Part shown: positions 18,379 through 62,204 of the stretch, piece after piece
How positions within the stretch are numbered: the first letter of the stretch is position 1
How the letters are laid out: each line of letters starts with the position of its first letter
Assembly (NCBI GenBank): GCA_963682055.1
Contig: OY821742.1
Span: forward strand, 7,277,816-7,341,815
DNA from: Primula veris
Taxonomy: Eukaryota; Streptophyta; Magnoliopsida; Ericales; Primulaceae
DNA: 64,000 nt
Direction: 5' to 3'
Notes under the pieces: generated by a model
Database searches by the model: none
Seen by the model: only the letters and a program-made list of their open reading frames with translations
Told to the model about the DNA's origin: nothing
Made by a program: the position numbers and the translations under genes

Positions 18379-18422
<44 letters not shown>

Positions 18423-26096: not shown

Positions 26097-26310
26097 TCAA
26101 AAATATATTATTAGCCATTCTGGAGGTTACTCTATTTGGCCTATGTTGGACTTTCATAGTATATGTAACTCTACCATCTATTATATAAGGAGAGTCAGGG
26201 TCTCTATCTCTCTGTACACTCATAAATAAACATTTTGTCTTGTTGTCTCTCTCTATATTCTCTCTTAATATCTATATACATATATATGTGAGCTAATATG
26301 TTACACAACA
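26097..26310 (+). repeat. LTR of element B copy 2
   Basis: It aligns along its length to the 223-bp LTR at 50223-50445 (TTGGCCTATGTTGGACTTTC, TATATAAGGAGAGTCAGGGT, TGTTGTCTCTCTC, GAGCTAATATGTTACACAACA) but is much more diverged than the two LTRs of element B are from each other. Its 5' boundary is approximate. Confidence 0.75.
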
Positions 26311-27539
26311 CGTTATCGACACTTTGCTCGCAGAAATAAAATATACGCTCGCGAATATTAGAAATTTTGGGTAAACGCACGTATATTGTGTGTGTATCTA
26401 TAAACCTTGAGGTTTATCCGGGTTTTATTGGATTCGTTTCGACCTTCTACAGCATACCAGGAGTACGGTATATTTTTTATATAGTTACACCTATCAAACA
26501 CATGTTTAAAAGAAAAAAAAAATGTAAAATTGCATGTGTACCTAATTTGCTACTGTATAAAAAAAAACCAAATAACATGAGTTATATATATAAAATATGG
26601 ATACGGTGATGCTATGGTAGTATACTGGTTTTTTTTAGATTATCATCTAAGAACGTACATATGATTACAAGTTTTCCTTTAACGAAAAAGAAAGAAAAAG
26701 AAATTCATGGTGTGAATTGTGATAGTATACGAACATGTCATGTGATAATTTATATATCTCATATTGTATGGCCCCTGTGTAGGTTAAGTTATATTTTTTT
26801 AGAACAACCTTGTAGTTCACACTATTATTGTTAAACTAGATCAGATTACTAACATGTTTTCAATCTGTGATTGCATGATGATTTGTTATGCCTATGAACA
26901 ACGTCACTAATTACATGTTCTAACATAAAATTCATAGCATAGCTTATGTATAATGTATGTATGCACGTTAGTAATTATATCTTCTAGTATATTGATGTTG
27001 AACCCAGTGTAATGCATGTTTATACTACCATAACTAGATATTTAGCATATTGAATTCGGGGGAATAGGCAATAAATATTGGTGTGTATTATTAAATCTGC
27101 TTGATTGTAGTGTATCGTGTATGTTACCATGAATATTAATTACACATATACCAATAGTATAATAAAAGATTGTGTTATATTTTGTTAGTGTAACGGGTAC
27201 AATTTAAATATTTAATTACAATCTATGTATTTATTTACAGCCATGTATACTTGTGTAAAATATGATAATTTGCGAAATCATATATTTTCACATTTAAGTT
27301 GAAAAAATTATGAACCTTCACCAACTAGGCTCACCTATTTGGATACGATGTCTAGGAAAGATATAGGCGGAAGTCGATATCCTAATGAGGTCGGGTTTTA
27401 AGTGGCATTCGTGTCCTCCACCCTCACCGTCTTTCCTGGTCGTTTTTCAAGTAGAGCTACCGAAAGGGGTTGACTAAATAATAATTTTCCCGAGTGTGCT
27501 TATATAGTGATGTATATTTCGCCGAATTGGTGTTTCAGT

Positions 27540-27802
27540 ATCGACCCGTCGTTCGATCAATGAGAACCGATTCACATAAGAAGTAAAACTAATGTTTTCG
27601 AACTTGTCGTTTCGAAAAAACGTTTGTGCTTGTACAAACCATAAACATATAAACCAGTCGTTTTATATGATAAATAATCCAGAACTCTCAACACATGTTG
27701 GATGCCATCTATGATGAGAAAAATCGTAAAACATACTTGTGAAATGACTGTTTAAACGTTTATTTTAATCCGTTACCACATGTTACTCACCCTGATGTGT
27801 GA
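27540..27802 (+). repeat. Four same-loop hairpins in element B copy 2
   Basis: Stem ATCGA/TCGAT around loop CCCGTCGT at 27540-27557; TTTTCGAA/TTCGAAAA around CTTGTCGT at 27595-27618; CATATAAA/TTTATATG around CCAGTCGT at 27646-27669; TCAC/GTGA around CCTGATGT at 27787-27802. The loops are alike while the stems are unrelated in sequence. The equivalents in element B are at 51483-51500, 51539-51560, 51590-51613 and 51731-51746. Confidence 0.8.
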
Positions 27803-28806
27803 AAATGTGATGCCCAAATTTTTTTTGGATGCCATCTTTGATGAGTAAAACACGAGTTTGTTGTTACCCTCATGATGAATGCTAAGGCGTTGATTTTATT
27901 CCGCCGCCACATTTGAGACGTGATGACGTCTATGGTGAACAAATGTCTGAAATTGACATATTGGAGCAATCTTTCACCGAAATACTAGCTTGAAAATTGT
28001 ATTCCATAAGCAGTATCATGAATTTATATTCACCATGTTCTTTTATCGCCCATCTGTTATTGGATAAGAAAATTACCCCGGTGAGTAGTTTTAATCCTAT
28101 TGGGTCAATGGCGAATTGTTTGCCTGATATTAATGCTCTTCGTGTATATTTTTTTTTCCACGAATCGAGAACCGAGACAAGTGTTATTTGTCTCGAACTG
28201 TCGCGATCCCGATGAATCGCCTAGCCAAGAGAGATTTTAGACAATCGTCAAAATAAAAAACTTGTGGCTCCAAGACAGTAATTGAAAAGAACAATATGAC
28301 CCGTTGTCACAAAGTAAGAGATAATGCTTAAGGAGGCAACTCTATGCTATAAAGACAAATGTCATGCACGGTTACTCCTTAAATAGTTCAAAACTATTAT
28401 AAATGTGAAAAAACCGATACTAATGTGGTTAAAGCTAACTGAAAGTAAATTATTGAGACCCCCGGTTTTGTGGCTCAAATGAGTTTGGGACATTTCTTTA
28501 TTGATTTTGATAAATCATTGAGCCATTTTTTCGCTCATCTGGATTTTTATTTTTTCATTTGGATTATTATTTTTCCACTTGGACCATACTTTTGGATTGT
28601 GGTTTGCCTGTTTATAAAATTTCTCGAAATAATTTAAAGTGTTTTGACCAAGTTTTTTTGATAAATGTGACCAAAGTTTAAATTATAAAATTTTAGGCAA
28701 TAGTTATAGGGAAGTTGGTTTTCTGAAAATAGTGGGTAGCCGATACCACATAATTTCACCAACTAATTGACTAAAAAGAGTGATTCTCGAAATGTCGTTC
28801 CAAAAC

Positions 28807-44699: not shown

Positions 44700-47600
44700 T
44701 TTTTTTTTTTAATTAATTGTGGTATAAACCACATTTTAGCTTTTATATATAAAGATGTTGCCCAGTACAAAATTACAAAAGAGGGGGCCTATCTGTTACA
44801 AAATGTAATATAGCTTCTCCCTCCATAATTAAAAAGACTTAACAGACTAAATTGAACAAAACTTTGGTCATATCAACCTCTTCTAAGCTTTTCCAAAATT
44901 AAAACAAAAACCAAAAAAAACCCAAAACGCTTCTCCTTCTCTCTCTCTATATTATCGCCTGATGGCGATTTCCTCCTTCGTCTTCTATTTCGATACGCAG
45001 GTTGATCATGTCTTCTTTTTCCACTTCCAATAGCCCTATTATCCTTTTAGGGAAATCCTTTAAATCATTAGAAAAAATAGGGGTTGCTTGCTCTCGTGCC
45101 TGTTTGGCTAGCAAATCAGCTATGCCATTTGCCTCTCTAAAGGTATGTTGTATCCTCACCCTTCCTGTTCCCTTTGTTATTAATTGCTTAATTTTAATAA
45201 ACCTTGATCTTATGTTCCATGGGATTTGGCCTTTGTCATTGCATATGCTGGCCATGATTTGAGAATCAGTCTCAATAATTATATTTCTATTGAAAATTAG
45301 ACCTAATTTAATCCCAGCATGTATAGCTTTAGCTTCCGCCATAATAGGTGTATTGGCTTTTACCTTTTTTACAAAGGCTTGTATAAAATCCCCTGCATGA
45401 TCTCTGATTACTCCCCCTATCCCAGCTTTCTTTGTAATCATACAAAAACTCCCATCCACATTGATTTTGATGCTTGTACTGTTTGGTTTATCCCACTTGA
45501 CAGTTTGAGGAACTTTAGTTTTGCCCTGTATAGTCACACTATGTATATTATGGAAATTAATATCTTTTGCATTTTTGGCGCCCTTTTTAATGATCATGTT
45601 GTAGCTATCAATAACCTCTTGTATTATACCCTCTTGCTTCATTGAAATATTTTCCATTCTACTTTTGCATCTGCTTTTCCAAATGTTCCACAGAATGAGG
45701 TGGGGAAAAATCTTATTGCTTTTAGTGATAATAGCTTTTCCTTTTGCCCTTTCCCATTCAATAAGTCTCCCCCTTATTGTAGTATTTGTTTCCTTAATCC
45801 CCATGTGATTTTGAAAGTACTCCCACACCTTTCTAGCCAGTTGCCCATTGCTGAATAAGTGTTCTAAACTTTCTTCTGATTTTCTGCAGCATTCACACTG
45901 GGAAGCTTGTTGGACTTGAAATTTTTGAATTGCAGTGTCTAATGGAATGGCTTTGTTCAGTATCCTCCATACCCCCACTGATATTTTCAAAGGTATATCC
46001 TTTACCCACATACTTTTATTATACCAGTTCATGCTGCTTTTATCCCTTAAAATGTTATAAGCTGTTTTTAGTGTGAAATTGCCATACTCAGTTTCTTTCC
46101 AAATTAGGACATCCTCCTCATCTATTGAGATTTTAGGTTCCTTGCCCACTTTAGTTCTATCTTCTATAGGAATTTCTTCCATTTTCCATTTACCTTCCTC
46201 ATTTAAGTATTGATGTATCTTACTATTAGAGATACAGTCAACATTGATAGGTCCATTCTTATTCCAGTTGTCCATATTGAAATCCACTTCCCCTTTACCA
46301 ATAATCCACATCATGCTTTTTTCAGCTATTTCTGATAACTTAGTCATTCTTCTCCAAACTGTAGACCCTTTCAATTGCTTAGCTTGAACTGGATGCTTTT
46401 TCCTACAGTATTTCCCTTTCATATGTTGTGTCCAAATAGTGTTATTCTTCCTAAACTTCCACCACAATTTGACACTAAAGGCATCTGTTATGCTTTGCAT
46501 GTTTTTTATACCTAAACCCCCTTCTGCTGTTGGTCTACATATTTTGTCCCAGCTCTTCCAGTGGTATTTGCTTTTTCCTTCACTGTCCCCCCAAAAGAAA
46601 TTTGCACATATTTGATCAATCTTCTGAATGATCTTTTTTGGTGGCTGTATAGCTGCTAGAGTGTAAATAGGCATTGATTGCAACACTGAATTGATTAAAA
46701 CCAGTTTAGCCCCCATAGAAAGGTATTTAGCTTTCCATCCTGATAACTTTTGGCTAATTTTATTGATGTTGTCTTGAAAAATATTGGCTTTTTTACGGCC
46801 ATTGAAAATGGGACATCCTAGATAAATGAAAGGGGTTGTTTTAAAATTCATATTCATGATATGGCCAATATCTTTTTTTCTTTTAGAGTTGATAAGCTTA
46901 GAGCAGTACATGTTACTTTTTTCTAAGTTCACTTCCTGACCAGAGATTTTTTCATAGTCTTTAATGGTCTTTTGAATGTTTTTGATGGTCCTTTTATCAG
47001 CAGCAGAGAAAATAACAATGTCATCTGCGAAAGCAAGATGAGTAATAGGTTTGCAAGAAATAGGTGTTCTGTAGGGCCTAATTTTCTTTTCTAACAGTAA
47101 GTCATTAAGCTTTCTTGAGAGAACCTCAGAGCAAAGAATAAAAAGAGTAGAAGAAATAGGATCCCCTTGCTTTAGTCCTCTAGTAGATTTGAAAAAGCCA
47201 TGTTGAGTACCATTAACCAACACAGAAAAGTAATTATTAGAAATAAGCCTCCATATTCTATCTATCATAAGTTCTGAGAAGCCCATTTTTCTCAAAGTTT
47301 TAATAAGGAAAAACCAGTCCACTCTATCATAGGCCTTTTTCATATCCAACTTCATGATAATGTTACCCCCCTCATTTTTCTTGTGCAAGTCTGTGGTCAA
47401 CTCTTGTGTAAGTAGAATATTTTCAATAATATCTCTACCTTTAACAAAACCACTTTGATTCTGAGCCACTAACTTAGTGAGTACTTTAGACATTCTATTA
47501 GAAATAATCTTAGAAATAATTTTATTGCAAAAAGTGCTTAGACTAATAGGTCTAAAATCAGTAAAACTATTAATGGCCTTCTTTTTTGGTAACATTACTA

Positions 47601-48838
47601 TTAAAGTAGAAGTAATAGCTTTAGGTATAATAGCTCCAGCATAGAATTGGTGAACTGCTTTTTTAATATCTTCACTTAGAATATCCCAACTAGCTTTAAA
47701 GAAACAACCTGTGAAACCATCAATACCTGGGGAACTGTTGCTATCTAAGCCCCAAACTGCTTCTTTGATCTCTTCCATTTCTGGAAACATATCCATTTCA
47801 TCTTGCTCCTCCTTGCTGATTAATCCATTAATGTTATTTAATAAACCATCTTGCCCCATATCTTTTTTTGCAGGTGCCAGTAATTCCATATAAAACTCAA
47901 CAGCAGCCTTGCTTATACTATCCTGTGAGGTAACCTTCTTCCCATCCTTATCCTCTATTCCATGTATTTGAGTTTTACTTCTTCTTGCTTTTACAGTGGC
48001 ATGAAAGAATTTTGTGTTAGCATCCCCCTCTAGTATCCACTTTAAATTGGCCTTTTGTCTCCAATAGTCTTCCTCCCTTTTTAGGTGTACCTTAAGCTCT
48101 GCTTTTACTTTATTCATTCTAGTTCTATTGATATCACATGGATCTTCTTCAAACTCTTTTTCAGCCTTTAGAGTGTCATCTTCTGCATCCTTAGTTTTTT
48201 GGAAAATGTTTCCAAATTCCTTTTTATGCCATTCTGTTAACCCTTTCCTTACTCTCTTAAGGTTTTCTGCAAATACATACATGGCATTTCCTTCTTCATA
48301 TTTTTTCCAGTTTGTTCTAATTATCTCTTTATACTTGACATGGTTGACCCAATAATTTTGAAAAACAAATCTCCTAGGCTTGAAATCTAATTCTGTAGCT
48401 GCTGAAAGGAATAGGGGTGAATGATCAGATCCCACTTTATTGAGGTGTTCAAGGCTGATTTTTTTGAATAGATTTTGACACTGATCATTTAAGTAAATTT
48501 TATCAATTCTTTCCCATATTGTTCCATCTCCATATCTACTATTCCACCAGGTAAATCTAGTCCCTATAAATGGCATTTCTTTTACTCCTATGCTGCTCAT
48601 ACAGTCTACACAGTCGTTTGCTTCATTTATATTAATAGGTGACCCTCCAATTTTGTCTTCATTTCTTGTAACAGTGTTGAAGTCTCCCCCAACTAGCCAA
48701 GGCTCTATTGTGTTAATGCTTTCCAGGTAACTCCATAGATCCCTTCTTTCCCTTCTAGTGCATTTAGCATACACTAATGTAATATTAATAATGTTGTCCA
48801 AAATATTACTCTCAATTTTTAAAGACAAGCACTGGTTC
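44700..48838 (-). mobile_element. 5'-truncated L1-type LINE, recent
   Basis: On the minus strand the element starts abruptly inside the endonuclease domain (48838), carries RT, a zinc-finger RVT region and RNase H, then about 235 bp of 3' UTR and a short poly(A), seen as 11 T at 44700-44710. A perfect 13-bp duplication flanks it. 5' truncation, A tail and variable-length duplication are the signature of target-primed reverse transcription. The open frame has no internal stop, so insertion is recent. Confidence 0.95.
44947..48838 (-). CDS. LINE ORF2 remnant: endonuclease (partial), RT, RNase H
   Basis: About 1,297 codons are open but no genuine start codon is present, because the 5' end is truncated; the frame simply begins at the element boundary. 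The partial APE-type endonuclease keeps GGDFN (residues 51-55) and GSDHS (137-141). The RT has FRPISLS (429), NQSGFVKGRDI (461), MKLDMKKAYDRVDW (496), STRGLKQGDP (552) and the catalytic FADD (604-607). A zf-RVT-like Cys cluster (CECCRKSEESLEHLF) and a C-terminal RNase H (INVDGSF, MAEAKAIHAG, ETDSQ, REANGIADLLA) follow. RNase H marks plant L1 lineages. It is unlikely to be translated from its own promoter. Confidence 0.93.
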
Positions 48839-48851
48839 AATTTAACTAATT
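48839..48851. repeat. LINE target-site duplication, right copy
   Basis: AATTTAACTAATT, identical to 44687-44699, at the truncated 5' end of the LINE. Confidence 0.9.
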
Positions 48852-50222
48852 AACACAAATATTAAAGAAACAAATACATGTATCTATTTAACAAGTTAAA
48901 CACATAAATACAAAAGAGTTGGAAAGTCATGAAAATAGCATATTTACGAAAATAGCATATTCATGAAAATAGCATAAATTTAACTAAGTACTATTTGGAA
49001 AATTAAGTACATATATTTAGAAAGATGGAAAGTTATCTAAAAGTTTATCTAATTTTTTTTTTTACATTTATAAATACTAGATATAATTTTACATGTATTT
49101 TAAATCGTCTTAAATTTAATGTAACGACATATATATAAATTTACAATTTATGTAATTTATTCCTATATAGAGGCAAATTTGTTAAGACGGAACCATAAAA
49201 AATCATGTAATATTACAATACGAAAGTTATTCTTATTTTGAATTGGAACGAGTTGGGAATGAATATTTTTATTTTTACATGCGGTTTAGGTTTTAGTGTA
49301 CGTGGTGGAGAATTGAGGATTAAGGAGATTGATTCAGTTGCTCTGAGTGATATATCTGCCAACGTTGGGGTTCGATAAAATGCGTACAAAAGTTAAATTT
49401 GGGTTTAAACTTTTTGTTTCATAAGTGTATAATTTTTAGAAATTAGTCACTCACATCCTTATCTCGTCCAATTTAGAAAATAAGACAATTGTAAAAAAAA
49501 AAACGTATATCTTTTAAAATATTTTCCTTAAATTAAATCATATTTTCTTTTTACTCAAAAACCGAACGCTAATTAACTGGTTGGTTTTGATCCGGTTCGG
49601 TTTTCATTTCCAAAATCATAAAACCAGATTAAAGTTTTCGTTTCTGTTTCACCGAGAGGCGAAAACCGAACCATGGGCACCCTAGTTTAAGTGTTTAACA
49701 ACTGGTCACATTCTAATCATCTTATCTCTATTTACACAAAATTCTAAAAGTCCTAGTTACATTTGCACAACATTTTAAACACGTCATGGTTAGTACTATT
49801 CGGTTCCAAATTATAAGTATACGTTTCATTTTGAGACGTGCCACCTTATAAATTAACTTTTCATAAATAAGTCCTAGTGTACTCGCCGTATTAAATTTTA
49901 TAACAAAATAAGGGAAAATTTTAGAAAGTAGTTGAAAAAGTAGGTGTGGATTACGTACGTATAACATTTTCCAAAAAATACTAATTTCCTAAAAATAACA
50001 TTTTCAAATATTACTTACTTGTTGACTTTACTTATCATATTCAAACTTATTTATAAATTAACTTTTCATAAATATTAACAATATGTTAGGTAATATTCCG
50101 TAGTGTATGTATTAAATTTTATAAAAAAAATAAGGGGAAATTTTAGACAGTAGTTGAAAAAGTAGGTGTGGATTGTGTATAACGTTTTCCAAAAAATACT
50201 AATTTTCAAAAAATAATATTTT
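48852..50222. other. Spacer with a tandem duplication at its end
   Basis: No gene. 49350-49500 resembles the F4 3' flank near 38480-38620 (GGGGTTCGATAAAATGC). Units of about 210 bp starting at 49847 and 50055 (TAAATTAACTTTTCATAAATA, GTAGTTGAAAAAGTAGGTGTG) are tandem repeats. The second unit is interrupted by element B and resumes at 61807, so the first unit (about 49998-50010, ACATTTTCAAATATTAC) shows the empty target site. Confidence 0.7.
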
Positions 50223-50445
50223 TGTTGTAAGATATTATTGGACTATTGGGCCTTACTCATAGTGGGCCTAAGTTGAACTTTCTATCTTGTATAACCCTAA
50301 CCTCTAGTATATAAAGAAGGTTAGGGTCCCCTTTTATTAATATACATTCTGATTAATAAAAACTCTATTGTTGTCTCTCTCATATCTCTCTATATCTGTA
50401 CATATCTATATATATATATATAACGAGCTAATATGTCACACAACA
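50223..50445 (+). repeat. 5' LTR of element B
   Basis: Starts TGTTGTAAGATATTATTGG, ends ATGTCACACAACA. A TATA box (TATATAAA, 50308-50315) is followed by a CT-rich run. The next bases, CGTTATCGGCACTTTGC, do not match the initiator-Met PBS. Confidence 0.92.
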
Positions 50446-52002
50446 CGTTATCGGCACTTTGCTCGCGGAGAATAGGATATACGCTCGCGGATATTGGAGA
50501 TTGTTGGTAAACGCACGGATATTGGGTATTTATAAACCTTGAGGTTTATCCGGGTTTTAGGGTTTTGCTATATCGATCTTCACCAACATACCGTGCGTAA
50601 GGTACCGAATTCAAAACTTAATTTATTCCATATACGTGATCGCACATATTATTTTATGGATAATTAAAACATGATAAATTATATGAAAGATGTAAAACAT
50701 ATTGGGTAATAAGGCATTTTTTTTTGTCTGCATGTGAAACAAATTGATAAGTAAAGACCTGTTAACTCATATGGATATGTTTGATTAGATTATTATTAAC
50801 ATGTATATGCCGTATGCTTTATTATTATGCCGTATGTGTGGTTATGAATTTACAGTCTAAATTGGCTAAGATATAAACCTTTAGAGGTTAAGCTATTATG
50901 TTTGAAAGCACTAGAATCATACCGAAACAGGTCAAGAATTGTGTACTGCCTATGTAATTATAATTATAATCAAACTGGATATAGTTTACTTAATTACAGG
51001 AGAGACCCCTAGTATTGTACTTACATTTAAAACAGTATATATGAGTTTAATTCTAGCTTAATACTCGGCCCATATTAATATACATACATGCATGAATATT
51101 GTTTAGTGATTAGTTAATAAAAAAAATTACATGTTAAGTGAATAAGAATTACCATGTTAATAATCACTGTCATGTAAAATTATTACTGCTGCTATGTATA
51201 TAATATGTAAATTTGCGAAATCATATATTTTCACATTTAAGTTGAAAAAATTATGAACCTTCCCCAACTAGGCTCACCTATTTGGATACGATGTCTAGGA
51301 AAGATATAGGCGGAAGTCGATATCCTAATGAGGTCGGGTTTTAAGTGGCATTCGTGCCCTCCACCCTCACCGTCTTTCCTGGTCGTTTTTCAAGTAGAGC
51401 TACCGAAAGGGGTTGACTAAATAATAATTTCCCCGAGTGTGTTTATATAGTGATGTATGTTTCGCCGAATTGGTGTCTCAGTATCGACCCGTCGTTCGAT
51501 CAATGAAAACCAATCCACATTAAAAGCAAAACTAATGTTTTCGAACCTGTCGTTTCGGAAAAAAAGTTTGTGCTTGTGCAAACCATAAACATATAAACCA
51601 GTCGTTTTATATGATAAATAATCCAGAACTCCCAACACATGTTGGATGCCATCTATGATGAGAAAAATCGTAAAACATACTTGCGAAATGACTGTTTAAA
51701 CGTTGATTTTAATCCGTCACCACATGTTACTCACCCTGATGTGTGAAAAATGTGATGCCCAATTTTTTTTGGATGCCATCTTTGATGAATAAAACACGAG
51801 TTTGTTGTTACTAGCGAGATGAAAGATAAGGCGTTGATGATATTCCGCCGTCACATTTGAGACGTGATGACGTCTATGGTGAACAAATGTCTGAAATTGA
51901 CATATTGGAGCAATCCTTCACCAAAATACTAGCTTGGAAATTGTATTACATAAGTTGTATCGTGAATTTATATTCACCATGTTCCTTTATCGCCCATATG
52001 TT
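50446..52002 (+). other. 5' interior of element B
   Basis: Non-coding or degenerate. It parallels 26311-28050 of copy 2, most closely from 51200 on. Same-loop hairpins lie at 51483-51500 (ATCGA/TCGAT), 51539-51560 (TTTCGAA/TTCGGAA, one wobble pair), 51590-51613 (CATATAAA/TTTATATG) and 51731-51746 (TCAC/GTGA). The element then breaks off at the element C insertion. Confidence 0.7.
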
Positions 52003-52243
52003 TGTTGAACCATGGGGTTCAATAATTGATTTTGATTATAACTTTGATTATGTTTTTAATGATTTTACGACTTCTCTATTTCGATGATATAATGCTTGTT
52101 TTTTCCAAAAAGAGAATTTGTAAAATGCAGAATGCTAGAAAGATAGAGCTCGGAAAAACGAAGCCACAGGTTCAAGCGGAACCAGAATCGGAGCTAAAAC
52201 GAAGGAGTTATGAGCATTCGAAGAAAAGCGAGAAAACAGAGAT

Positions 52244-52388
52244 CGACCGATCGTCTGTACAAAAACGACCGATCGTTTTTGTACCAATTTCTTCCAGTGA
52301 GCAGGTCGAAAAAACGACCGATCGTTTCTCATAAACGACCGATCGTTTTCTGGAAAACGACCGATCGACTGTAGAAAACGACCGATCG
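52244..52388 (+). repeat. Array of six CGACCGATCG motifs in U3
   Basis: Copies start at 52244, 52266, 52315, 52336, 52358 and 52379. Several are centred in longer near-palindromes: 52369-52398 reads CTGTAGAAAACGA and its mirror TCGTTTTCTACAG, and GTACAAAAACG...CGTTTTTGTAC surrounds the second. The array is kept at 55994-56138 in the 3' LTR. Its place, 110-250 bp upstream of the TATA box, suggests binding sites for a dimeric factor or RNA hairpins in the 3' copy. Confidence 0.9.
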
Positions 52389-52494
52389 TTTTCTACAGAA
52401 TTCGAAAACAGCTTTTCAGCTTTTTCTGGAAAATAGCTTAAAACAGCCTCAACCACTTCTAACGGTCATAACCCAAAAAAACAGACCTTTGGTC

Positions 52495-52502
52495 TATATA
52501 TA
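52495..52502 (+). promoter_or_regulatory. LTR TATA box of element C
   Basis: TATATATA in GGTCTATATATACAAGCTC, followed by a pyrimidine-rich leader with many CAATC/ACCA words. The same sequence is at 56245-56252. Confidence 0.7.
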
Positions 52503-53196
52503 CAAGCTCAATCTCTCTTCCAAACCACCAATCAATACACCAATCTATCATCCTAAAACCTCTCTCATTCAAAACCCTAAATATCACCATTTTGGTGTAT
52601 ATATTCGAAAAAAGAGGGAAATCAAGGATATAGCGATTCAAGCCCGACCAACATCAAAGACTCACCAATTAGCTTATTAAGAAGCAATTAAAATAGTGAG
52701 TGTAGTTACATTATTGTAACAAATTTTATTTCAATTTTCGATAAAATTGTAAAGAGTGTTTTATAAACTCATTTGTAAGCGAGTGATCGGGTAGAGGCTT
52801 TGTAAGCAAGTGAAGCTTAAAAGCTCTAGGTCTTTTCATTCGGGACACTCATAGAGCGAGGGGGAGCTTAATCGGTCGATTAGCTCGTTAGGATTGTAAT
52901 ATCCGAAAAAGATTTTTTAGTGAAATACTCGGTAGTACCGAGGAGAGGACGTAGGCGCGTTTTGCCGAACCTCTATAAATCACGGTGTCATCTTCTTCCC
53001 TTAAACTTTTACTTTCCGCAAATATTTATTATTGCTTATTTTCTTGCTTGCGTTTGAATTAATTAACGATTATTAACGCTTAAGCTTAGAATTGCGAAAG
53101 TTGGGTTGTTAGTTGCACTTAGTCTTTAATTAGGCGAAAATCGCCAAAAACCTTATTCACCCCCCTCTAAGGTTTAGCCTCATCGGGGCCAACAAT

Positions 53197-53208
53197 TGGT
53201 ATCAGAGC
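53197..53208 (+). other. Primer binding site of element C
   Basis: TGGTATCAGAGC, complementary to the 3' end of plant initiator tRNA-Met, lies two bases after the LTR. This is the standard first-strand primer site of plant copia elements. Confidence 0.95.
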
Positions 53209-53256
53209 CGAGGCTCTTGCATATAGGAATTTAACGATTTAAGAGTTAAGATCCCG

Positions 53257-55473
53257 ATGGCTAATTTGTACAATTTCGCATCCGGCATAGCTTTATCCCC
53301 AAATACTCCACCTTATTTTGATGGAATAAATTTTTCATATTGGAAGGATAGGATGAGCATGCTTTTACAAAGCTATAATGTTAGACTTTGGATGACCATA
53401 AAAGTAGGATATTCCGCACCTACATCCGAAAATAGCGAAAACCCAATCCCCGTAGAGGACCTAGATAACGCTCAACTAGAAGCCTACTCTACGAACGCCA
53501 AAGCGATGTATGCTATTGTTTGTGCCGTTTCTCCTAACGAGTACAACAAAATTTCCGCTTGTAAAACCGCTAAGGGTATGTGGGATAAGCTAGTAGTTAT
53601 GCATGAAGGGACTAACCAAGTTAAGGATTGCAAACTCCAACTATTAGTTCATGACTACGAGCTATTTAAAATGAGCGAGAGTGAAACTATTTCCGATATG
53701 CTTGCTAGATTTACTACTATTACTAATGGATTAACATCTCTTGGTAAGTGTTTGTCTTGTAAGGAAATGGTCTCAAATGTGATTCGGAGCTTACCGAAAG
53801 AATGGGAACCAAAGGTCACCGCAATTCAAGAGGCGCACGACATGAACACCTACACTCTTGATGCATTGACGGGTTCACTCATTACTCACGAGATCACCCT
53901 CAATAGTCACAAGCCAATCTCGAAAAAGAGGGAGATAGCTTTCAAAGGAACAACTTGTGACGAAAGCGATGAGCTATCCAATGACGACGAAAATTCAATG
54001 CAAATCATTCGAATCGTCAAGGAAATACTCAAGCTAAAAGACCACCGCAAACATAAAGTTAAATCGTCAAATAATTCAATTTATTCTAACGATTTTGTTT
54101 GCTATACTTGTGGCAAGGAAGGACACATGGCTAGAGATTGCATCAAAAATCGCAAGAGCAAAGGCAAGAACAAGATATCCGCCTCAAGCTCTAGCGATAG
54201 CTCGGACCAAGATGAAGTCGCTCACCTTGGTTGCTATATGGCCATGGAAGACAACCATGAACAAAGCCTCTCATCCTCAAGCGAAAGTGACAACGATGAG
54301 GTAAAAGAATTATCTCATGATGAATTAATTCATATGTGTGGAATTTATTCCGAAAAACTTCCTAAGCTTGTAGAGAAGGTTAAATCTCTTAAAAGGATAA
54401 ATTCTTCCCTCAATGAAGAAATAAGATCCTTGAAAAGAGATAAAAATGAAAATGAGTCTATTCCAACATCATCATTCTCTTTACATGATATAGATGACGA
54501 AAAGGAAGACTTGAAAGACAAAAACAATGATCTCGTCATTCATAATAAGTCTTTACAAACCGAGATCAATTTTCTTAAAAATGAAGTATCTAGACTTACT
54601 AAAACTCTTTCAAAACCATCTTCTTTAGATTGTGATTTATTAGAAAATTTTGAAGACTTAAAGGATGCTTTCGATAAATTTAAAAGCAAAAACAAGGTTT
54701 TGAGTTCTCATGCTTTTAACTTAAATGACAAGGTCAAGGTTTTAGAAACCGAGAATGAATCGTTGAAAACTAAAAACAACGATCTTGTCATTTCCATTGA
54801 AAAACTTAATTTAACAATTTCAAAGTTTTCTAAGGGTAAAACCGTTTTAGATAACATTTTGAGTTGTCAAAAAGATCTCAATGATAAGAGCGGTTTAGGT
54901 TTTGATTGCATTGGTTCTACTTCAAACAAAACCCGCTTCGTTAAAACCTCTAATATTTCTACAACTCCTATTCCACCTAAACAAGAGGTTGTTTTTACTA
55001 AAGGGAGTACTTCCAAGATTTTTCAAAAATCTTTTAATAATAGGAAAGGTATAGGTTTTAAAACCAAATTGGATACTCCAAAAAACCTTTCCAAAACTTC
55101 GTATAACTCTCGTTATACTAAAAAGTCTAGGCATTGCATACATTGTAGTAGAAGTGAGCATAATTCTTCCAAATGCCCAAATCGCTTTCAAGTTAGTAGA
55201 AGCGATTTGAAATGGGTAGTAAAGACCCGAGCCACTGACAATGTCGGACCCAAAAGAAATTGGGTACAAAAAGATAAATCTTGTGTTGTAGGTATCTCCA
55301 TCCAAAAGGAGAAAATCAACAAGTGGTTGGCAAAACCGGAAAAAACCGTGGAAGTCAAGAAGATCGACTCCACCATAAAGAAAGAAGTCCCATTAATCGA
55401 CAAAGGTGGAAGGCATACCAACAAATGGTACCACCTATTTGGACTTGGCAATGCTCAATACAAATGCCATTAG
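53257..55473 (+). CDS. gag: Gag of element C, intact, 738 residues
   Basis: ATG at 53257 is 49 bp after the PBS. Residues 1-230 form a UBN2/DUF4219-type capsid (PPYFDGINFSYWKDRM near 18, KGMWDKLVVMHEG near 106). A canonical zinc knuckle, C282-X2-C285-X4-H290-X4-C295 (CYTCGKEGHMARDC), follows. A Ser/Asp-rich linker and a long coiled coil (about 360-530, many ESLKTKN/EEIRSLK heptads) come next. A second CX2CX4HX4C motif lies at 627-640 (CIHCSRSEHNSSKC). Layout and words resemble SIRE/Maximus copia Gag; the frame ends where the protease would start. It presumably packages its own RNA. Whether it also co-assembles with the helper Gag is unknown. Confidence 0.9.
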   Translation: MANLYNFASGIALSPNTPPYFDGINFSYWKDRMSMLLQSYNVRLWMTIKVGYSAPTSENSENPIPVEDLDNAQLEAYSTNAKAMYAIVCAVSPNEYNKISACKTAKGMWDKLVVMHEGTNQVKDCKLQLLVHDYELFKMSESETISDMLARFTTITNGLTSLGKCLSCKEMVSNVIRSLPKEWEPKVTAIQEAHDMNTYTLDALTGSLITHEITLNSHKPISKKREIAFKGTTCDESDELSNDDENSMQIIRIVKEILKLKDHRKHKVKSSNNSIYSNDFVCYTCGKEGHMARDCIKNRKSKGKNKISASSSSDSSDQDEVAHLGCYMAMEDNHEQSLSSSSESDNDEVKELSHDELIHMCGIYSEKLPKLVEKVKSLKRINSSLNEEIRSLKRDKNENESIPTSSFSLHDIDDEKEDLKDKNNDLVIHNKSLQTEINFLKNEVSRLTKTLSKPSSLDCDLLENFEDLKDAFDKFKSKNKVLSSHAFNLNDKVKVLETENESLKTKNNDLVISIEKLNLTISKFSKGKTVLDNILSCQKDLNDKSGLGFDCIGSTSNKTRFVKTSNISTTPIPPKQEVVFTKGSTSKIFQKSFNNRKGIGFKTKLDTPKNLSKTSYNSRYTKKSRHCIHCSRSEHNSSKCPNRFQVSRSDLKWVVKTRATDNVGPKRNWVQKDKSCVVGISIQKEKINKWLAKPEKTVEVKKIDSTIKKEVPLIDKGGRHTNKWYHLFGLGNAQYKCH

Positions 55474-55752
55474 CGAGCGGACTCAACATCACACATATCG
55501 GTATACTCTAATCCTTAATATTTACATATATGTGATTAGTTGGGTAATATGCATCATACTATCATTTTTCATGTTTTGGTTTTTCTTTAAAAACCCTTCA
55601 CATAACCCCATATTTTTTTTATTGATTGCATTTTGATAATGCCAAAGGGGGAGAAAAATGAGATTTAGAGAAATGCGTTTTCTTAAAATGGAGGAGATAT
55701 AGTTATACTTGTAAAATCATCATTATTTTGTCATAATCAAAATGGGGGAGAT
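55474..55752 (+). other. 3' untranslated region with two polypurine tracts, element C
   Basis: AAAGGGGGAGAAAAA (near 55643) and AAAATGGGGGAGAT (55739-55752, touching the 3' LTR) are polypurine tracts. The second is the plus-strand primer. The first, in the context GCCAAAGGGGGAG, resembles internal sequence of SIRE-type elements. No pol remnant is recognisable between gag and LTR. Confidence 0.8.
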
Positions 55753-56945
55753 TGTTGAACCATGGGGTTCAATAATTGATTTTGATTATAACTTTGATTA
55801 TGTTTTTAATGATTTTACGACTTCTCTATTTCGATGATATAATGCTTGTTTTTTCCAAAAAGAGAATTTGTAAAATTCAGAATGCTAGAAAGATAGAGCT
55901 CGGAAAAACGAAGCCACAGGTTCAAGCGGAACCAGAATCGGAGCTAAAACGAAGGAGTTATGAGCATTCTAAGAAAAGCGAGAAAACAGAGATCGACCGA
56001 TCGTCTGTACAAAAACGACCGATCGTTTTTGTACCAATTTCTTCCAGTGAGCAGGTCGAAAAAACGACCGATCGTTTCTCATAAACGACCGATCGTTTTC
56101 TGGAAAACGACCGATCGACTGTAGAAAACGACCGATCGTTTTCTACAGAATTCGAAAACAGCTTTTCAGCTTTTTCTGGAAAATAGCTTAAAACAGCCTC
56201 AACCACTTCTAACGGTCATAACCCAGAAAAATAGACCTTTGGTCTATATATACAAGCTCAATCTCTCTTCCAAACCACCAATCAATACACCAATCTATCA
56301 TCCTAAAACCTCTCTCATTCAAAACCCTAAATATCACCATTTTGGTGTATATATTCGAAAAAAGAGGGAAATCAAGGATATAGCGATTCAAGCTCGACCA
56401 ACATCAAAGACTCACCAATTAGCTTATTAAGAAGCAATTAAAATAGTGAGTGTAGTTACATTATTGTAACAAATTTTATTTCAATTTTCGATAAAATTGT
56501 AAAGAGTGTTTTATAAACTCATTTGTAAGCGAGTGATCGGGTAGAGGCTTTGTAAGCAAGTGAAGCTTAAAAACTCTAGGTCTTTTCATTCGGGATACTC
56601 ATAGAGCGAGGGGGAGCTTAATCGGTCGATTAGCTCGTTAGGATTGTAATATCCGAAAAAGATTTTTTAGTGAAATACTCGGTAGTACCGAGGAGAGGAC
56701 GTAGGCGCGTTTTGCCGAACCTCTATAAATCACGGTGTCATCTTCTTCCCTTAAACTTTTACTTTCCGCAAATATTTATTATTGCTTATTTTCTTGCTTG
56801 CGTTTGAATTAATTAACGATTATTAACGCTTAAGCTTAGAATTGCGAAAGTTGGGTTGTTAGTTGCACTTGGTCTTTAATTAGGCGAAAATCGCCAAAAA
56901 CCTTATTCACCCCCCCTCTAAGGTTTAGCCGCATCGGGGCCAACA
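55753..56945 (+). repeat. 3' LTR of element C
   Basis: 1,193 bp, same ends as the 5' LTR. The differences seen are about nine single bases and one extra C in the C run near 56913. Confidence 0.95.
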
Positions 56946-57680
56946 TGTTATTGGATAAGAAAATTACCCCGGTGAGTAGTTTTAATTCTATTGGGTCAAT
57001 GGCGAATTGTTTGCCTGATATTAATGCTCTTCGTGTACAATTTTTTTTCCACGAATCGAGAACCGAGACAAGTGTTATTTGTCTCGAACTGTCGTGATCC
57101 CGATGAATCGCTTAGCCAAGAGAGATTTTAGACAATCTTCAAAATCGAAAACCTGTGGCTCCAAGACAGTAATTGAAAGGAACAATATGGCCCGTTGTCA
57201 CAAAGGAAGAGATAATGCTCAATGAGGTAACTCTATGCTATAAAGACAAAGGTCATGCACGGTTACTCCTTAAATAGTTTAAAACTATTATAAAGGTGAA
57301 AAAACCGATGCTAATGTGGTTAAAACTAACTGAAAGGAAATTTTTGAGACCCCCGATTTTGTGGCTCAAATGAGTTTGATACCTTTCTTTGATTTTGATA
57401 AATCATTGAGCCATTTTTTCGCTCATTTGGATTATGTTTTCCATTTGGATTATTATTTTTCCATTTGGACCATACTTTTGGATTATGGTTTGCCTGTTTA
57501 CGAAATTTCTCGAAATAATTTAAAGTGTTTTGAGCAAATTTCTTTGACAAATGTGACCAAACTTTAAATTATGAAATTTTAGGCAATACTTGTGGGGTAG
57601 TTGATTTTTTTGGAAATAGTGGGTAACAGTGTACCACATAATTTCACCAACTATTTGCCTAAAAGAGTACTCAGTGACAA

Positions 57681-57707
57681 CGATTCTGGACCTGTCGTTC
57701 CAAATCG
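57681..57707 (+). repeat. Same-loop hairpin with bulged C
   Basis: Loop CCTGTCGT (57691-57698). The stem is TGGA/TCCA, continued by CGATT/AATCG with one bulged C at 57686, nine pairs in all. A weaker member, AGGT/ACCT around CCTGCCGT, follows at 57772-57787. Confidence 0.8.
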
Positions 57708-57949
57708 AAATCTTTGGTAAAACCAAATTGATTTGTCAAATATGAGGTCTTATACTCATGTAGGTCCTGCCGTACCTTGTTGAGTTATAAAATATTCGAG
57801 AAAACCAGTGTTATATGGTAATAGCTCATAAAAGAATTGAAATTTCTTTACATATCCTCCATTCAAATACGATCAAAAGTGTATTTTAGAGGAGTTGAAA
57901 TGTCTTTCAAGTGGTTGCTACCATATTCTTTAAAGCATTTAAAGTTACC

Positions 57950-58036
57950 TTATCATTTCGCCTGTCGTCGAATGATAAATGATTTAGATGCTAAGACATG
58001 ATTGTCTATACTATCATTCGCCTGTCGTCGATTGAT
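57950..58036 (+). repeat. Two same-loop hairpins 60 bp apart
   Basis: At 57950-57978 the loop CCTGTCGT is closed by CG/CG and TTATCATT/AATGATAA with one bulged T, ten pairs. At 58013-58036 the same loop is closed by ATCATTCG/CGATTGAT, seven of eight paired. Confidence 0.85.
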
Positions 58037-59130
58037 CAAAGCATTTTGATATTGTGGCATTGACCGGATCAGATATTCCTGGGTCAAAAGATGATGCTTG
58101 ATTTATAATCGCATCGCATTTGGATTCTCTTTGAGGATATATTTCGTGATTAATCCGAAATTCATGCCACTAATGCTCACCTTGAAACACTAGTATGTGT
58201 AAAGATCACGAAAAATACTCGTAGAATTCTTATAAAGAATTGAAGGAGTTATTGTGGACTTATCCAACCATAAGACGGACCATAAATATAAATGGTAATG
58301 GTTGATGCATCGACAATAGGTCACATGATTATTGTTGTCCACAGAAATGCAGTATTTCCAAAACTTTTAGCCCTATCATTAAGTTGATGGCTCATGATCC
58401 GGATTATCCTGAAAAGTCTAGTCGACTTGATAATTCCGAAGAGTAAGAACCGAAAATTCGATTTGAATTACTTGAGTTTGGAAATTGAAATTAAACATCT
58501 TGTCGATTATGTTCAGACCCAAATGGACTCACGGAAAGTTTGATGATGCGACTGCAAATGATTGCACGCATTTCTTGGTCTTGCGCACCAAGATTTATAT
58601 TTCCGTGTAGGGTTATGCTATTTTACTGCATTGGTCCGTTATGAGGCTCATAGACACTCAAACACCATATGCGTACCAGCTGGTTACTGGTTATGAGCCA
58701 GAAGTCTCATATTAACGCGTGTTTAGAGTGATTAATTCATATTTTGATTGAGCCGCTCTAACGTTCAAAATATGGACCTCTGAAGGGGACATAAGTCGAT
58801 TATGAATCTCCTGCCTATCATTTGATAGAGTAACCTTGGCAAGCGATCTCTTTACCGCATGATATGCGAAAGTGACATCGCTAAGACTGTCCTCCCCGTC
58901 GTTAGGGGGAGATTTGCACGTTACCGTTGATAAGGAACGACGTGAAGTAACATGGCATAACCCACTCAGTCTTAGCTTGTTCCCCAAAACTGCACTTAGT
59001 GATAAGTAAGTGCATAGACTCCCTCAAGTCTAACTAAATGTCAGACGCATTTAATAAATTTATGAGATGTCACGAGATCATTTATACCTACTGCAAAATG
59101 CTTGCAAGGATAGACGTCCTTGTCGGACGC

Positions 59131-59150
59131 CGTGTTCCTGTCGTAACATG
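59131..59150 (+). repeat. Same-loop hairpin
   Basis: Stem CGTGTT/AACATG (one G-T wobble) around loop CCTGTCGT. Just upstream, CGTCC/GGACG around TTGTC (59115-59129) is a shorter relative. CTCGT/ACGAG around TTGTCGT follows at 59275-59291. Confidence 0.8.
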
Positions 59151-59540
59151 TTGCTTTGGCCGAACCCGCCAAGCAAAGGACGCTGCCGTCGGCCGTCAGT
59201 CTGTCATCCTTCCCAAGATATGAGGAAGTTGACCGGTTCTTAATTCGTTCAGCCCCAGGGGTGGTGAACTGAAACTCGTTTGTCGTACGAGATTATAAAG
59301 GATCAAGGAGATGTGTGATTTCCTCCTCATCCTAAGAATCTCGAAATATCTGTCGATCATGATATCTTAGACGATATTGAAGCGAAACGAGATTGTCATT
59401 GATTACTTGTTCATATATTCGGTGACGACTGATAATATGAACAAATTATGACAGAGAACCATGTACCGTTGCCTGAAGTCAACGTAGAATAGACTGTACT
59501 AATGGAAACTTGCAATCCAAGTAGACTCCTTAGCGAAAGT

Positions 59541-59565
59541 GTGTTCGGACCTGTAGTTCCAACAC
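59541..59565 (+). repeat. Same-loop hairpin with bulged C
   Basis: Stem GTGTT/AACAC plus GGA/TCC with a bulged C at 59546, around loop CCTGTAGT. The bulge is like that at 57681-57707 although the stem bases differ. Confidence 0.75.
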
Positions 59566-60834
59566 CACCAATGTTAAACGAGTTCGTTTATTTGATTATT
59601 CGTAAGGAAAAGTGATGAGAATAATGAGATTGTAGAATGCTCGCCTAGTAGCGCAAGACTTCTCTCACACCTTGGAATTGATTACGAGATGGTTGATTTC
59701 CTCGTAATGGACATTATAACAGTCCCCTACTTTACCAGTTTAGTAGTTTCCGAAAAACTGAGTATGCAGCCATGAATGTGGTCACGGTTTTATCTCTATG
59801 GGGATTTAGACAAAGAGATATAGATGAAGGTCCCTGTGTGACTTCATGTGCTTAAATCAAGTAGTTTCTGACCACGGAACACGATCTCAATTGACTGAGA
59901 CGTTCACTATATGGATTAATATAATCCGAGCGGATGTGGTATACCGCCTAAGTGAGTACTTGATTAGCTTGGGATACTTGAACAAGTATTATGCCCTTGC
60001 GTGTTTTATTACGCGATCCATTTTTGGATTTGCCTTCGAGATGAAGGATCTTGGGAAGAAACGGTAGTGACTCGGCCTGATGATCGAGTCCCGTAAAGAT
60101 TGAATCTAAGTCCATGATTCAGAATACACCTAGAAGGTGTTATGACGTTGTACTCATTATGACGCTAAGTCGTCAGAGTTTCCCATGATTGTTCGATCAC
60201 TAGACATTGATATAGACCAAGTCCGTCCCTAATGTGACGATGAAGAGATATTGAACCATAATGTTCATATCTAAGTACAATAAGCACATCATTGTACTTG
60301 GTCTAATGTGCTAGGACGAACATCTCGTCTGTTGTGAATGGTATAGCTCGACACAACATCGCGCTAACACGCTGCCATCGAAATGGCACTAAAGACACAT
60401 TCCCTTATCTTATGGTAATTTTGGAAGTGGGCTATTTTATCCCATTTGCGTCATCGAGTGTACCTACCCCCTTCGGTACTCGAATTAACGCAACCCTTTT
60501 TCGGTTATACCGATGCCGGTTACTTATCAGACCCGCATAAGGGATATTCCTAACATGGTATGTCTTTACCATTAGGAATAAGGCGACATCTTGGAGGTCT
60601 TGGAATGACTCCAAGTGAATCACTCTGATCTATTCGTGCTCTATGAGACGACTAGAGAGTGTATATGGCTTCGAGCTAGTATTAGTCATATTTGAATTAC
60701 ATATGTTCTGTCTCACGATCCAGATAAAACACTTGTCATAGAAGATAACTTGTTGTTATTGATCAAGAGAGACATGAATACATTATGCTATTTAGCATTT
60801 CTCGCCGAAATTAATCTTCACAAATGAAGTTTAA

Positions 60835-61209
60835 GAGCATCCAGTTGAATGCTCGTTCTATTCCACGTTAGATTTTCTTGCATCCAGTCGTATGTAAGTA
60901 AATGAGGCATCCAGTCGAATGCTCGTACTCTTTATTGAAATATGAAATCCTTGCACCCTGTCGTGTGCAAGTGAGGGGGAGCATCTATGTGAATGCTTAT
61001 TGTACTAATTACTACTTAGTCGAAATTCTCGCACCCTGTCGTGTGCAAGTGAGGGGGAGCATCCAGTCGCATGCTCGTGTACTCTTTTTGTCCTTAGACC
61101 AAGGTTTTTTCCCACTGGATTTTCCTTGGCAAGGTTTTTAGCGAGACATGTTCCCATCATATCTCACTTAAGATTGCCGAAATTAGGGGGAGTATCCGGT
61201 TGTATACTT
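60835..61209 (+). repeat. Cluster of eight same-loop hairpins
   Basis: GAGCAT/ATGCTC around CCAGTTGA (60835-60854); CTTGCAT/ATGTAAG around CCAGTCGT (60877-60898); GAGgCAT/ATGCTC around CCAGTCGA (60904-60924); CTTGCAC/GTGCAAG around CCTGTCGT (60950-60971); GAGCAT/ATGCTT around CTATGTGA (60979-60998); CTCGCAC/GTGCAAG around CCTGTCGT (61028-61049, one mismatch); GAGCAT/ATGCTC around CCAGTCGC (61057-61076); GAGTAT/ATACTT around CCGGTTGT (61190-61209). The last shows paired C-to-T and G-to-A changes relative to GAGCAT/ATGCTC. Confidence 0.88.
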
Positions 61210-61373
61210 CTTACCACTGTGTATTCTTTTGTCCTTCGCCTAGAGGTTTTTCCCACTGGGTTTGCTCTAGCAAGGTTTTGATGAGGCACCTGTTTTGTGG
61301 TTGATCCCCTACTACTACCACTGTTGCACTCTTTTTCCTTCGATCAGAGATTTTCTCATTGGGTTTGCTCTGG
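61099..61373 (+). repeat. Three larger hairpins with covarying stems in the element B 3' UTR
   Basis: Stems CCAAGG/CCTTGG (61099-61129), CTAGAG/CTCTAG (61240-61270) and TCAGAG/CTCTGG (61344-61373) enclose a loop of similar sequence (TTTTTCCCACTGGGTTT type). Each is preceded by ACTCTTTTT.TCCTT-like sequence and followed by CAAGGTTTT.ATGAGGCA-like sequence, so a unit of about 105-140 bp is repeated. A fourth, weaker copy lies near 61450-61500. This motif resembles the 3' ends of other plant copia elements. Confidence 0.8.
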
Positions 61374-61583
61374 CAAGATTTTGATGAGGCACACTGTTTT
61401 GTGGTTAGTTACTTACATGATATTTCGGCCTATATCATTCGGCTACACAGTTTCTCCTAGGTACCGGTTTTGTCCCACACTGGGTTTTCCGTCCCTAAGG
61501 TTTTTATGTGTTTAGCACTGCGAATGAACTCGACTCAGATCGAATGCATGAAGACGAATAATTCAAGACGTCCAAATGAGGAG

Positions 61584-61806
61584 TGTTGTAAGATATTATT
61601 GGACTATTGGGCATTACTCATAGTGGGCCTAAGTTGGGCTTTCTATCTTGTATAACCCTAACCTCTAGTATATAAAGAAGGTTAGGGTCCCCTTTTATTA
61701 ATATACATTCTGATTAATAAAAACTCTATTGTTGTCTCTCTCATATCTCTCTATATCTATACATATCTCTATATATATCTATAACGAGCTAATATGTCAC
61801 ACAACA
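61584..61806 (+). repeat. 3' LTR of element B
   Basis: 223 bp, same ends as 50223-50445; six substitutions by eye. TATA box TATATAAA at 61669-61676. It is followed by the target duplication ATTTT. Confidence 0.92.
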
Positions 61807-62204
61807 ATTTTCGAATATTACTTACTCGTTGACTTTACTTATTATCTTCAAATTTATGGAAAAATTAACAAAAATATACCATTTTTGGTCCCCAAATTTA
61901 TCTATATCTCTCTAAACTCTCAGAAATTCCCTCTCTAAAATCTCAGTTCTTTCATTTTTTTTTGTCCCAATTCAGGTAACATTGTACTCTCCTCTATTTG
62001 TTTAATACATTATACATGCTTATCAGCTTATGTATAAATAAATGGACCATTTATTACCATGTTAATGTATTACAGTAGTAGATAGTCGGGTTGTAAGTAA
62101 AATCCGTGAAACCGTGAACCCCAGCTGTTGGTTTGGTTTAAGTTTTGATTTTGTTAATCCGAACAAGACCGATCCAATCCGAATTCACTGATAAAAATTT
62201 AAAA
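61807..62204 (+). other. Upstream flank of F6
   Basis: It begins with the rest of the duplicated spacer unit broken by element B. A CT-rich leader (61900-61965) ends in CAATTCAG/GTAACATT, a good splice donor context. It may be a 5' UTR exon with an intron reaching toward the ATG at 62205; a similar CTATTCTCAG/GTAACC lies at 18747-18760. No other gene. Confidence 0.5.

Follow-up and report, generated by a model that had tools for sequence, protein, structure and literature searches.

Several dispersed stem-loops that share a loop motif have been described in satellite tobacco necrosis virus (STNV; PMC3593212) and hepatitis B virus (PMC7612645), and capsid yield in the excerpted STNV report shows a preference for the loop sequence but none for the stem. 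A comparable array occurs in element B, a Ty1/copia-type long terminal repeat (LTR) retrotransposon at 50223-61806 (+) of the 64,000-nucleotide (nt) stretch of the Primula veris genome analyzed here (contig OY821742.1, positions 7,277,816 to 7,341,815; hereafter the window, in whose numbering coordinates are given). Whereas the excerpts describe viruses with tested coat-protein binding, the B family consists of LTR retrotransposons, has an 8-nt loop, and is known from sequence alone. Its hairpins almost certainly act as RNA and are under selection.

Two retrotransposons offer further points of comparison. BARE2 has no Gag and is parasitic on BARE1, its RNA being packaged by that partner, and the excerpted account mentions conserved dimerization and packaging signals (PMC3735527). 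The B family likewise contains a copy type without its own Gag (B-type), alongside copies with long open frames (A-type); unlike BARE2, B-type copies have also lost a working pol, and dispersed constant-loop hairpins are not met with in that part of the BARE2 account. Ty1, like the B family, is of the copia type, and its Gag must select the genomic RNA by a mechanism that the excerpted text calls unclear (PMC8396678), so that the choice of its own RNA by an LTR retrotransposon is an open question even there. In the same text, the Ty1 signals lie near the 5' end with a pseudoknot and Ty1 Gag lacks a zinc finger, whereas a weak zinc-knuckle (zf-CCHC) match is present in two coding elements considered below, L012 (just below the cut-off) and L001.

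A search of the open-licence literature, with most subscription papers outside its reach, found no description of a constant-loop, free-stem pattern and no paper containing the string CCCACTGGGTTTT; the phenomenon in PMC10578108, judging by its excerpt, is a different one. No plant relative was found among viral contigs in a database search, and none among plasmids and phages by DNA.

A near-constant octaloop on free stems

Loops were selected irrespective of stem, as octamers with at most one mismatch to CCTGTCGT or CCAGTCGT. The sense strand of B holds 16 such octamers, 11 of which sit on a perfect stem of at least four pairs and 14 on at least three, bearing out a preliminary description of this stretch that had reported hairpins with a near-constant loop, although the pattern proves more extensive than described there; two octamers (57088 and 58895) have no adjacent pair. 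Stems of at least four pairs also flank all three loop-selected sites in copy 2, a relative of B at 26102-28804 (+), compared with 0 of 12 sense sites in the rest of the window (2 of 12 with at least three pairs) and 0 of 9 antisense octamers in the window. The preliminary description had named stemless octamers within the family as the outcome that would count against it, and the opposite holds: family octamers have stems, and octamers elsewhere in the window do not, as is to be expected of unrelated DNA.

Over six inner positions, B's 16 sites average 4.50 pairs; the average is 1.61 over every octamer in the region, and 1.83±0.35 (maximum, 3.06) in 5,000 redeals of the right arms. The looser core CCNGNNG occurs at 27 sense sites in B, with a stem of at least three pairs at 21 and at least four at 16, in keeping with an earlier count of about 22 hairpins. 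A motif-free scan over loop lengths of 5 to 12 nt returned, at P < 1e-5 (uncorrected), this octamer and AT microsatellites only. With repeated flanks collapsed, the best log10P in B was -13.8, compared with -4.6 for the best of 60 shuffles. The collapsed-flank scan found no family of three stems in copiaA (window 6364-10766), the element nested in B, a long interspersed nuclear element (LINE), or the 13-26 kb region, and reached -1.9 only at 30-44 kb; copy 2 is too short for it to yield a family. Chance origin is ruled out by the loop-only selection, the arm dealing, and the shuffles, and an origin as ordinary repeats by the survival of the family when repeated flanks were collapsed. Nine Rfam matches up to E 1 were obtained for window 50000-62000, none reaching its gathering score, and window-wide RNA folding z-scores did not single out the element (mean, -1.21 for B 57681-61209, -1.66 for copiaA, -1.40 for the nested element, and 0.02 for the LINE).

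All hairpins listed here are on the + strand. The first four lie at 51483-51500 (loop CCCGTCGT, five pairs), 51538-51561 (CCTGTCGT, four perfect pairs, or eight with one G-U), 51590-51613 (CCAGTCGT, eight pairs), and 51731-51746 (CCTGATGT, four pairs, missing in A-type copies), and copy 2 has hairpins at 27540-27557 (CCCGTCGT), 27595-27618 (CTTGTCGT), 27646-27669 (CCAGTCGT), and 27787-27802 (CCTGATGT). The hairpin at 57096-57109 (CCCGATGA) has three pairs and its copy 2 counterpart (28203-28220) five. Farther downstream are hairpins at 57687-57702 (CCTGTCGT, four pairs), 57762-57777 (CCTGCCGT, four pairs), 57950-57978 (CCTGTCGT, four inner pairs plus an outer 8-bp arm, B-type only), 58013-58036 (CCTGTCGT, three perfect pairs, or seven of eight with one mismatch; the A-type keeps the stem with a different loop), 58692-58711 (CCAGAAGT, six pairs), 59133-59148 (CCTGTCGT, four pairs), 59467-59484 (CCTGAAGT, five pairs), and, in pol, 59547-59560 (CCTGTAGT, three pairs, the octamer being present in L001). 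Four near the 3' end are confined to the B-type, namely 60835-60854 (CCAGTTGA, six pairs), 60877-60898 (CCAGTCGT, three perfect pairs, more if G-U is counted), 60907-60922 (CCAGTCGA, four pairs), and 60950-60971 (CCTGTCGT, seven pairs), and three are common to both types: 61031-61046 (CCTGTCGT, four pairs), 61057-61076 (CCAGTCGC, six pairs), and 61191-61208 (CCGGTTGT, five pairs).

The preliminary description had taken 57681-61209 as the span of this 3' group; hairpins do lie there, but because the nested element (about 52003-56945) splits B, that span is only the 3' part of an element covering 50223-61806. Its view that the stems share no sequence likewise holds in part: about a dozen stems in B are, by our reading, unrelated, but others are not independent, with 60884, 60957, and 61035 of one type, 60841, 60911, and 61063 of another, and 57961 and 58021 of a third. 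The tightest loop neighborhood has eight distinct 4-nt inner arms.

A possible second constant-loop element, with a T-rich loop around CCCACTGGG and short, differing, complementary arms, is located near the 3' end, with three sites in B (61095-61132, 61240-61275, and 61345-61378) and two in L001 (4785-4825 and 4890-4925).

Family copies, coding frames, and a second element

The 436.5-Mb assembly (34 contigs) contains 1,137 exact matches (575 forward and 562 reverse) to a 28-mer from the 3' end of B, comprising a loop and its right arm followed by a purine stretch, and none to the reversed control. The 20 copies examined are 8.5-kb stretches (element plus flanks), all within the first 13 Mb of contig C1 and not a random draw; in these, a stem of at least four pairs accompanies 178 of 311 sense octamers and 0 of 52 antisense octamers. 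The octamer or a close variant is the best loop family in 17 of the 20 copies (octamer family log10P of -6.8 or better); it is weaker in L024 (-4.8), and L023 and L029, which are partial B copies, show none. Sixteen copies, some truncated or deleted, are B-type, with 88-96% identity to B in the main blocks. The four A-type copies have open frames of 1,195 (L012 and L020), 1,188 (L022), and 671 (L018) codons, and their identity to B is 66-75% in pol and up to 89% in the leader and 3' end.

With the CCNGNNG core, stems of at least four pairs occur at 16 of 27 sense sites in B, 16 of 40 in L012, 11 of 25 in L022, and 14 of 28 in L001, as opposed to 0 of 4, 0 of 13, 0 of 11, and 0 of 10 antisense sites, respectively. 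CopiaA has none on either strand (0 of 20 sense and 0 of 8 antisense), the LINE none at its single sense site, and the nested element, with 0 of 2 sense sites, is outside the hairpin family.

Within open frames, codons were redealt among synonyms (400 trials per frame), and loop hairpins with stems of at least four pairs were counted. The pol frames of L012, L020, L022, and L001 contain 8, 7, 5, and 8 such hairpins, against shuffle means of 0.61, 0.53, 0.22, and 0.38 (0 of 400 trials each), with the qualification that L012, L020, and L022 are related and their results not independent. The gag of L001 has two (mean, 0.01; 0/400) and that of L012 one (mean, 0.08; 30/400), or three if stems of at least three pairs are admitted (0/400); the same count gave no loop hairpins in the copiaA pieces, the nested gag, or the LINE. 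Coding constraint as the cause is ruled out by these shuffles together with the presence of sites in several frames. In L012, a loop hairpin (2153-2175, site 2159) abuts an ATG that is the likely start of gag, and L022 is alike (2219-2241, site 2225).

Short hairpins of any loop are also in excess. A-type pol frames have about two (arms of at least 5) to three (at least 6) times as many as codon shuffles: 83 versus 42.6±6.5 and 32 versus 10.6±3.1 in L012, to which L020 and L022 are similar (33 versus 10.4±3.3 in L022 at arms of at least 6). At arms of at least 5, B 58100-60830 has 79 against 33.2±6.1, and L001 pol reaches a z of 3.4, yet it has 11 against 12.4 at arms of at least 6. The z values are 2.1-3.2 for the copiaA coding pieces, 2.6 for the nested gag, 1.2 for the LINE, and -0.3 for F-box. 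General RNA structure, therefore, seems to be favored too, and the excess in A-type pol, B 58100-60830, and copiaA suits the idea of a broadly structured RNA whose shared loop arises incidentally from general selection for local hairpins, as in genome-wide ordered structure. We regard that explanation as quite improbable, since the loop family stands out after flank collapsing and copiaA has the general excess without any such family, marking the loop family as a separate feature.

A second element carries its own version of the loop. L001 (NZ_QPKJ02000023.1), evidently a plant copia element, has a 1,215-codon pol frame and is, in its best segment, 64% identical to P0001, the best plant copia match to B's own pol; L001 and L032-L034 come from an assembly titled Solirubrobacter sp. 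CPCC 204708, in which these plant-like copia contigs are probably contaminants. The loop family of L001, CCNGAAG, came from the motif-free scan (-7.3 with flanks collapsed versus -4.3 in 60 shuffles) and has 21 sense and 2 antisense copies, with 0.68 expected from base composition. A stem of at least three pairs around a 7- or 8-nt loop is present at 15 of the 21 sense sites (background, 3.9%) and neither antisense site, and when three tandem leader copies are left out, 12 of 18 have a stem, whereas 5,000 arm deals averaged 1.1 and never exceeded 5. Sites occur in the leader and, within pol, in every one of the three frames. C1, C2, G4, and G7 of the B loop are likewise fixed in CCNGAAG, which gives a shared core of CCNGNNGN, and letters 5-6 are TC in the B family and AA in L001. 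Selection for structure, as the preliminary description had proposed, is thus upheld by confinement to the sense strand, the near-constant loop, the free stems, the excess over codon shuffles, and this loop variant of L001's own.

When nine CCNGNAG sites of L001 are mapped to B, four keep at least three pairs in the aligned register, with arms AGAT/ATCT versus AGGT/ACCT at 1364/57766 (where the L001 stem requires a 9-nt loop), GGG/CCC versus GGA/TCC at 3208/59550, ATC/GAT versus GTC/GAC at 3499/59833, and GGT/ACC versus GAA/TTC at 4009/60256; sites 1473, 2748, 2790, 3238, and 4566 have no stem in register at the mapped B places. Because a stem of about 3 turns up anywhere as the best result of a free search within 6 bases (the background averages 3.18), the exact register alone is informative. 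The octamers at B 58895 and 59550 recur at aligned places of L001, and site 1563 was paired with B 58021 by equal spacing, counted by eye. In partial copia contigs from the same assembly, sense cores have a stem of at least four pairs in 1 of 10 cases (L032) and 0 of 5 (L033/L034).

Conservation, turnover, and the reader of the loop

Across 20 sites, chosen because B has a hairpin there, and 16 aligned copies, loop conservation is 0.94 at C1, 0.93 at C2, 0.94 at G4, 0.79 at T5, 0.65 at C6, 0.95 at G7, and 0.79 at T8, with T or A at position 3, and 1,423 of 1,800 stem cells are Watson-Crick and 94 are G-U. A C2-G7 pair could close a four-base loop, as in some folds. Among paralogous hairpins (19 rows, 17 distinct), 76.5% of cells are paired, compared with 44.6±4.1, with a score of 0.841 versus 0.248. 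Covariation is strong on three of five measures; on the other two it does not differ from shuffles, the counts of "pairs changed on both sides" and "further pair types" being reached by 357 and 134 of 500 shuffles, respectively. Covariation, the absence of which the preliminary description would have counted against itself, is thus strong across unrelated stems. A covariance model gave 30 matches up to E 10, 18 of them at E < 0.05 and all in B or copy 2, but it is not independent of these sites, from which it was built; the best match that it gives in L001 is at 3201-3222 (E 0.0033).

Changes in B relative to its coding relatives are depleted in arms of at least 4 (10.6% versus 16.3% outside, no shifted mask being as low) and at least 5 (0.031 of shifts), but not at least 6 (0.456). 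Between B and copy 2, only 4 of the 104 hairpin bases and 98 of the 1,446 bases outside are changed, too few for a conservation test. Coding and non-coding copies share most stems where they align, and six sites (51735, 57961, 60841, 60884, 60911, and 60957) have no A-type counterpart. Where L012 hairpins (arms of at least 6) are followed into two B-type rows, 19 of 84 changed pairs are compensated (control, 6.1%), and where B hairpins are followed into two A-type rows, 10 of 105 are (control, 6.9%), the two rows being related in each case. The hairpins are therefore retained in part and in part gained and lost, as expected of an array with turnover.

These patterns bear on a mechanism that the preliminary description had entertained, in which template switching by reverse transcriptase or during replication at quasi-palindromes copies a flank in reverse beside a fixed octamer. 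Quasi-palindrome mutation does produce hairpins with unrelated stems, as seen here, and tandem copies are found among the 3' hairpins. Three features do not follow from it: a constant loop, a single strand, and the same stem at aligned places. Most stems in fact coincide at aligned A- and B-type places (their conservation being borderline against random placement), and hairpins exceed synonymous shuffles in open frames; the signature of a newly copied arm with an unconstrained loop was not found. We consider this origin extremely improbable. Kissing-loop or dimerization sites, or a loop that pairs with another RNA, including some host RNA, are only slightly less improbable. Loops of stable hairpins are typical of loop-loop contacts, and several sites lie in the leader, but the loop is not self-complementary, no matching partner loops were found, and the complementary core sites are few, not enriched in B, and stemless (0 of 4 in B, 0 of 13 in L012, 0 of 11 in L022, and 0 of 10 in L001).

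The several stem-loops share one loop motif on free stems and are dispersed along the RNA, occupying leader, coding, and 3' regions, and they persist in non-coding copies that have transposed. Of the roles suggested earlier, packaging or another protein-binding function appears to fit best. A reader of RNA sequence presented on a stem would account for the confinement to the sense strand, the freedom of the stems, the occurrence irrespective of frame, and the persistence in non-coding copies. We place about even confidence in the proposal that the hairpins are dispersed recognition sites for the element's Gag and work as packaging signals. The loop would be read (core CCNGNNGN, as CCWGTCGW in the B family and CCNGAAGN in L001) while the stem need only pair; the reader would be the element's own Gag; the array would serve as packaging signals distributed along the genomic RNA, drawing it into the virus-like particle; and B-type copies without coding capacity would retain it through dependence on a partner's Gag. 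Two points would make Gag the likeliest reader: letters 5-6 of the loop are not the same in the two elements, and a subfamily without coding capacity would have to be recognized in trans.

A host RNA-binding protein that acts in nuclear export, RNA stability, or the control of translation could read the loop instead. Any RNA-binding protein would be compatible with free stems and with hairpins on the sense strand only, and the sites extend all along the RNA, one of them directly before the likely gag start codon (L012 2159). The difference in letters 5-6 (TC and AA) and the lack of the motif in other copia elements of the window would be better explained by an element-encoded reader, and a host reader is accordingly unlikely.

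Other observations weigh against recognition by Gag. Ty1 Gag, in the excerpted text, has low RNA-binding specificity and prefers the 5' pseudoknot (PMC8396678). Between A- and B-type copies at the same sites, covariation is weak: of 26 differing stem pairs, 2 changed from one Watson-Crick pair to another and 4 via G-U. The four inner pairs at seven sites in pol have a divergence of 0.127, compared with 0.235 (L012) and 0.245 (L022) for pol, a borderline difference, with 289 and 213 of 5,000 random placements as low, and the loops at these sites are not less diverged than pol (0.273 and 0.291). The A-type carries another loop at 58021 and 59472, and the comparison across the lineage involves two elements only, B's family and L001.

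An extension of the Gag proposal is possible, although we lean away from it, the more so as the pol loops are not better conserved than pol. A lineage-wide recognition code would consist of a CCNGNNGN octaloop on arbitrary stems over the whole RNA, within as well as outside coding sequence. Its middle letters would be specific to each family (TC, AA, and others) and recognized by the cognate Gag; a family would then package its own RNA, that of its coding-dead hitchhikers included, to the exclusion of others. Packaging by Gag, if true, would extend dispersed packaging signals from viruses to LTR retrotransposons, and coding-dead copies that ride on a partner have a bearing on plant genome growth. 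Since the loop motif can be found from sequence, lies inside coding sequence, and is kept in a non-coding subfamily, it supplies sites to bind, mutate, and swap, for example, CCTGTCGT versus CCAGAAGC loops.

Element B and its surroundings

The 223-bp LTRs of B (50223-50445 and 61584-61806) are 97.3% identical (6 of 223 positions differ), and the element is flanked on both sides by the target-site duplication ATTTT (flanks read by eye), the LTR pair and short duplication being those of a Ty1/copia element. Plant substitution rates are about 1.3e-8 per site and year, at which the LTR divergence corresponds to an insertion age of about one million years. Broken copia pol remnants extend over 57732-60830 (+), as traced by piecewise tblastn with relatives, and have stops in every frame. 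An X-marked piece of B's pol matched plant copia proteins, most closely P0001 (E 2.5e-28), with 285 of the 438 candidate proteins reaching E <= 10, and it is this protein search, with the tblastn matches along 57732-60830, that establishes the copia kinship of B, the Pfam RVT_2 match in B itself having an E of only 0.13. The copia order of gag and pol with integrase before reverse transcriptase is seen in the coding relative L012 (gag PF14223; pol with rve at 219-309 and RVT_2 at 687-928, E 1.7e-58), while pol is broken in B.

B has broken frames, yet it has a target-site duplication, LTRs differing at 6 of 223 positions, and non-coding kin at 88-96% identity, as expected of a non-autonomous element; it transposed recently without coding capacity of its own. 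A-type copies probably mobilized it in trans. In a protein search of plasmids, copia-type reverse transcriptase matches with 23-32% identity over 96-98% of P0001 were found in three small actinobacterial plasmid records, NZ_CP115454.1, NZ_CP115302.1, and NC_015657.1.

The younger copia element nested in B (about 52002-56945, +) has LTRs of 99.2% identity (9 of 1,193 positions differ) and a gag frame at 53257-55473 (PF14223, E 3.2e-32); no pol was seen in it, making it gag-only. The leader and gag-like part of copy 2 are 94% and 90% identical to B and its LTR part 76%. The LTR part has thus diverged more than the leader and gag-like part, and some of the leader is unalignable, indicating a mosaic or unequal constraint.

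Elsewhere in the window, an inverted repeat of about 1 kb (17714-18713) is self-complementary at 94%, and an open frame of 1,297 codons at 44947-48840 (-) is LINE-like, its kind judged by eye. Related F-box/FBD-like frames are clustered on the + strand (13209, 21560, 30237, 36541, 42200, and 62145), one of which has its best database match at 31% identity over 77%.

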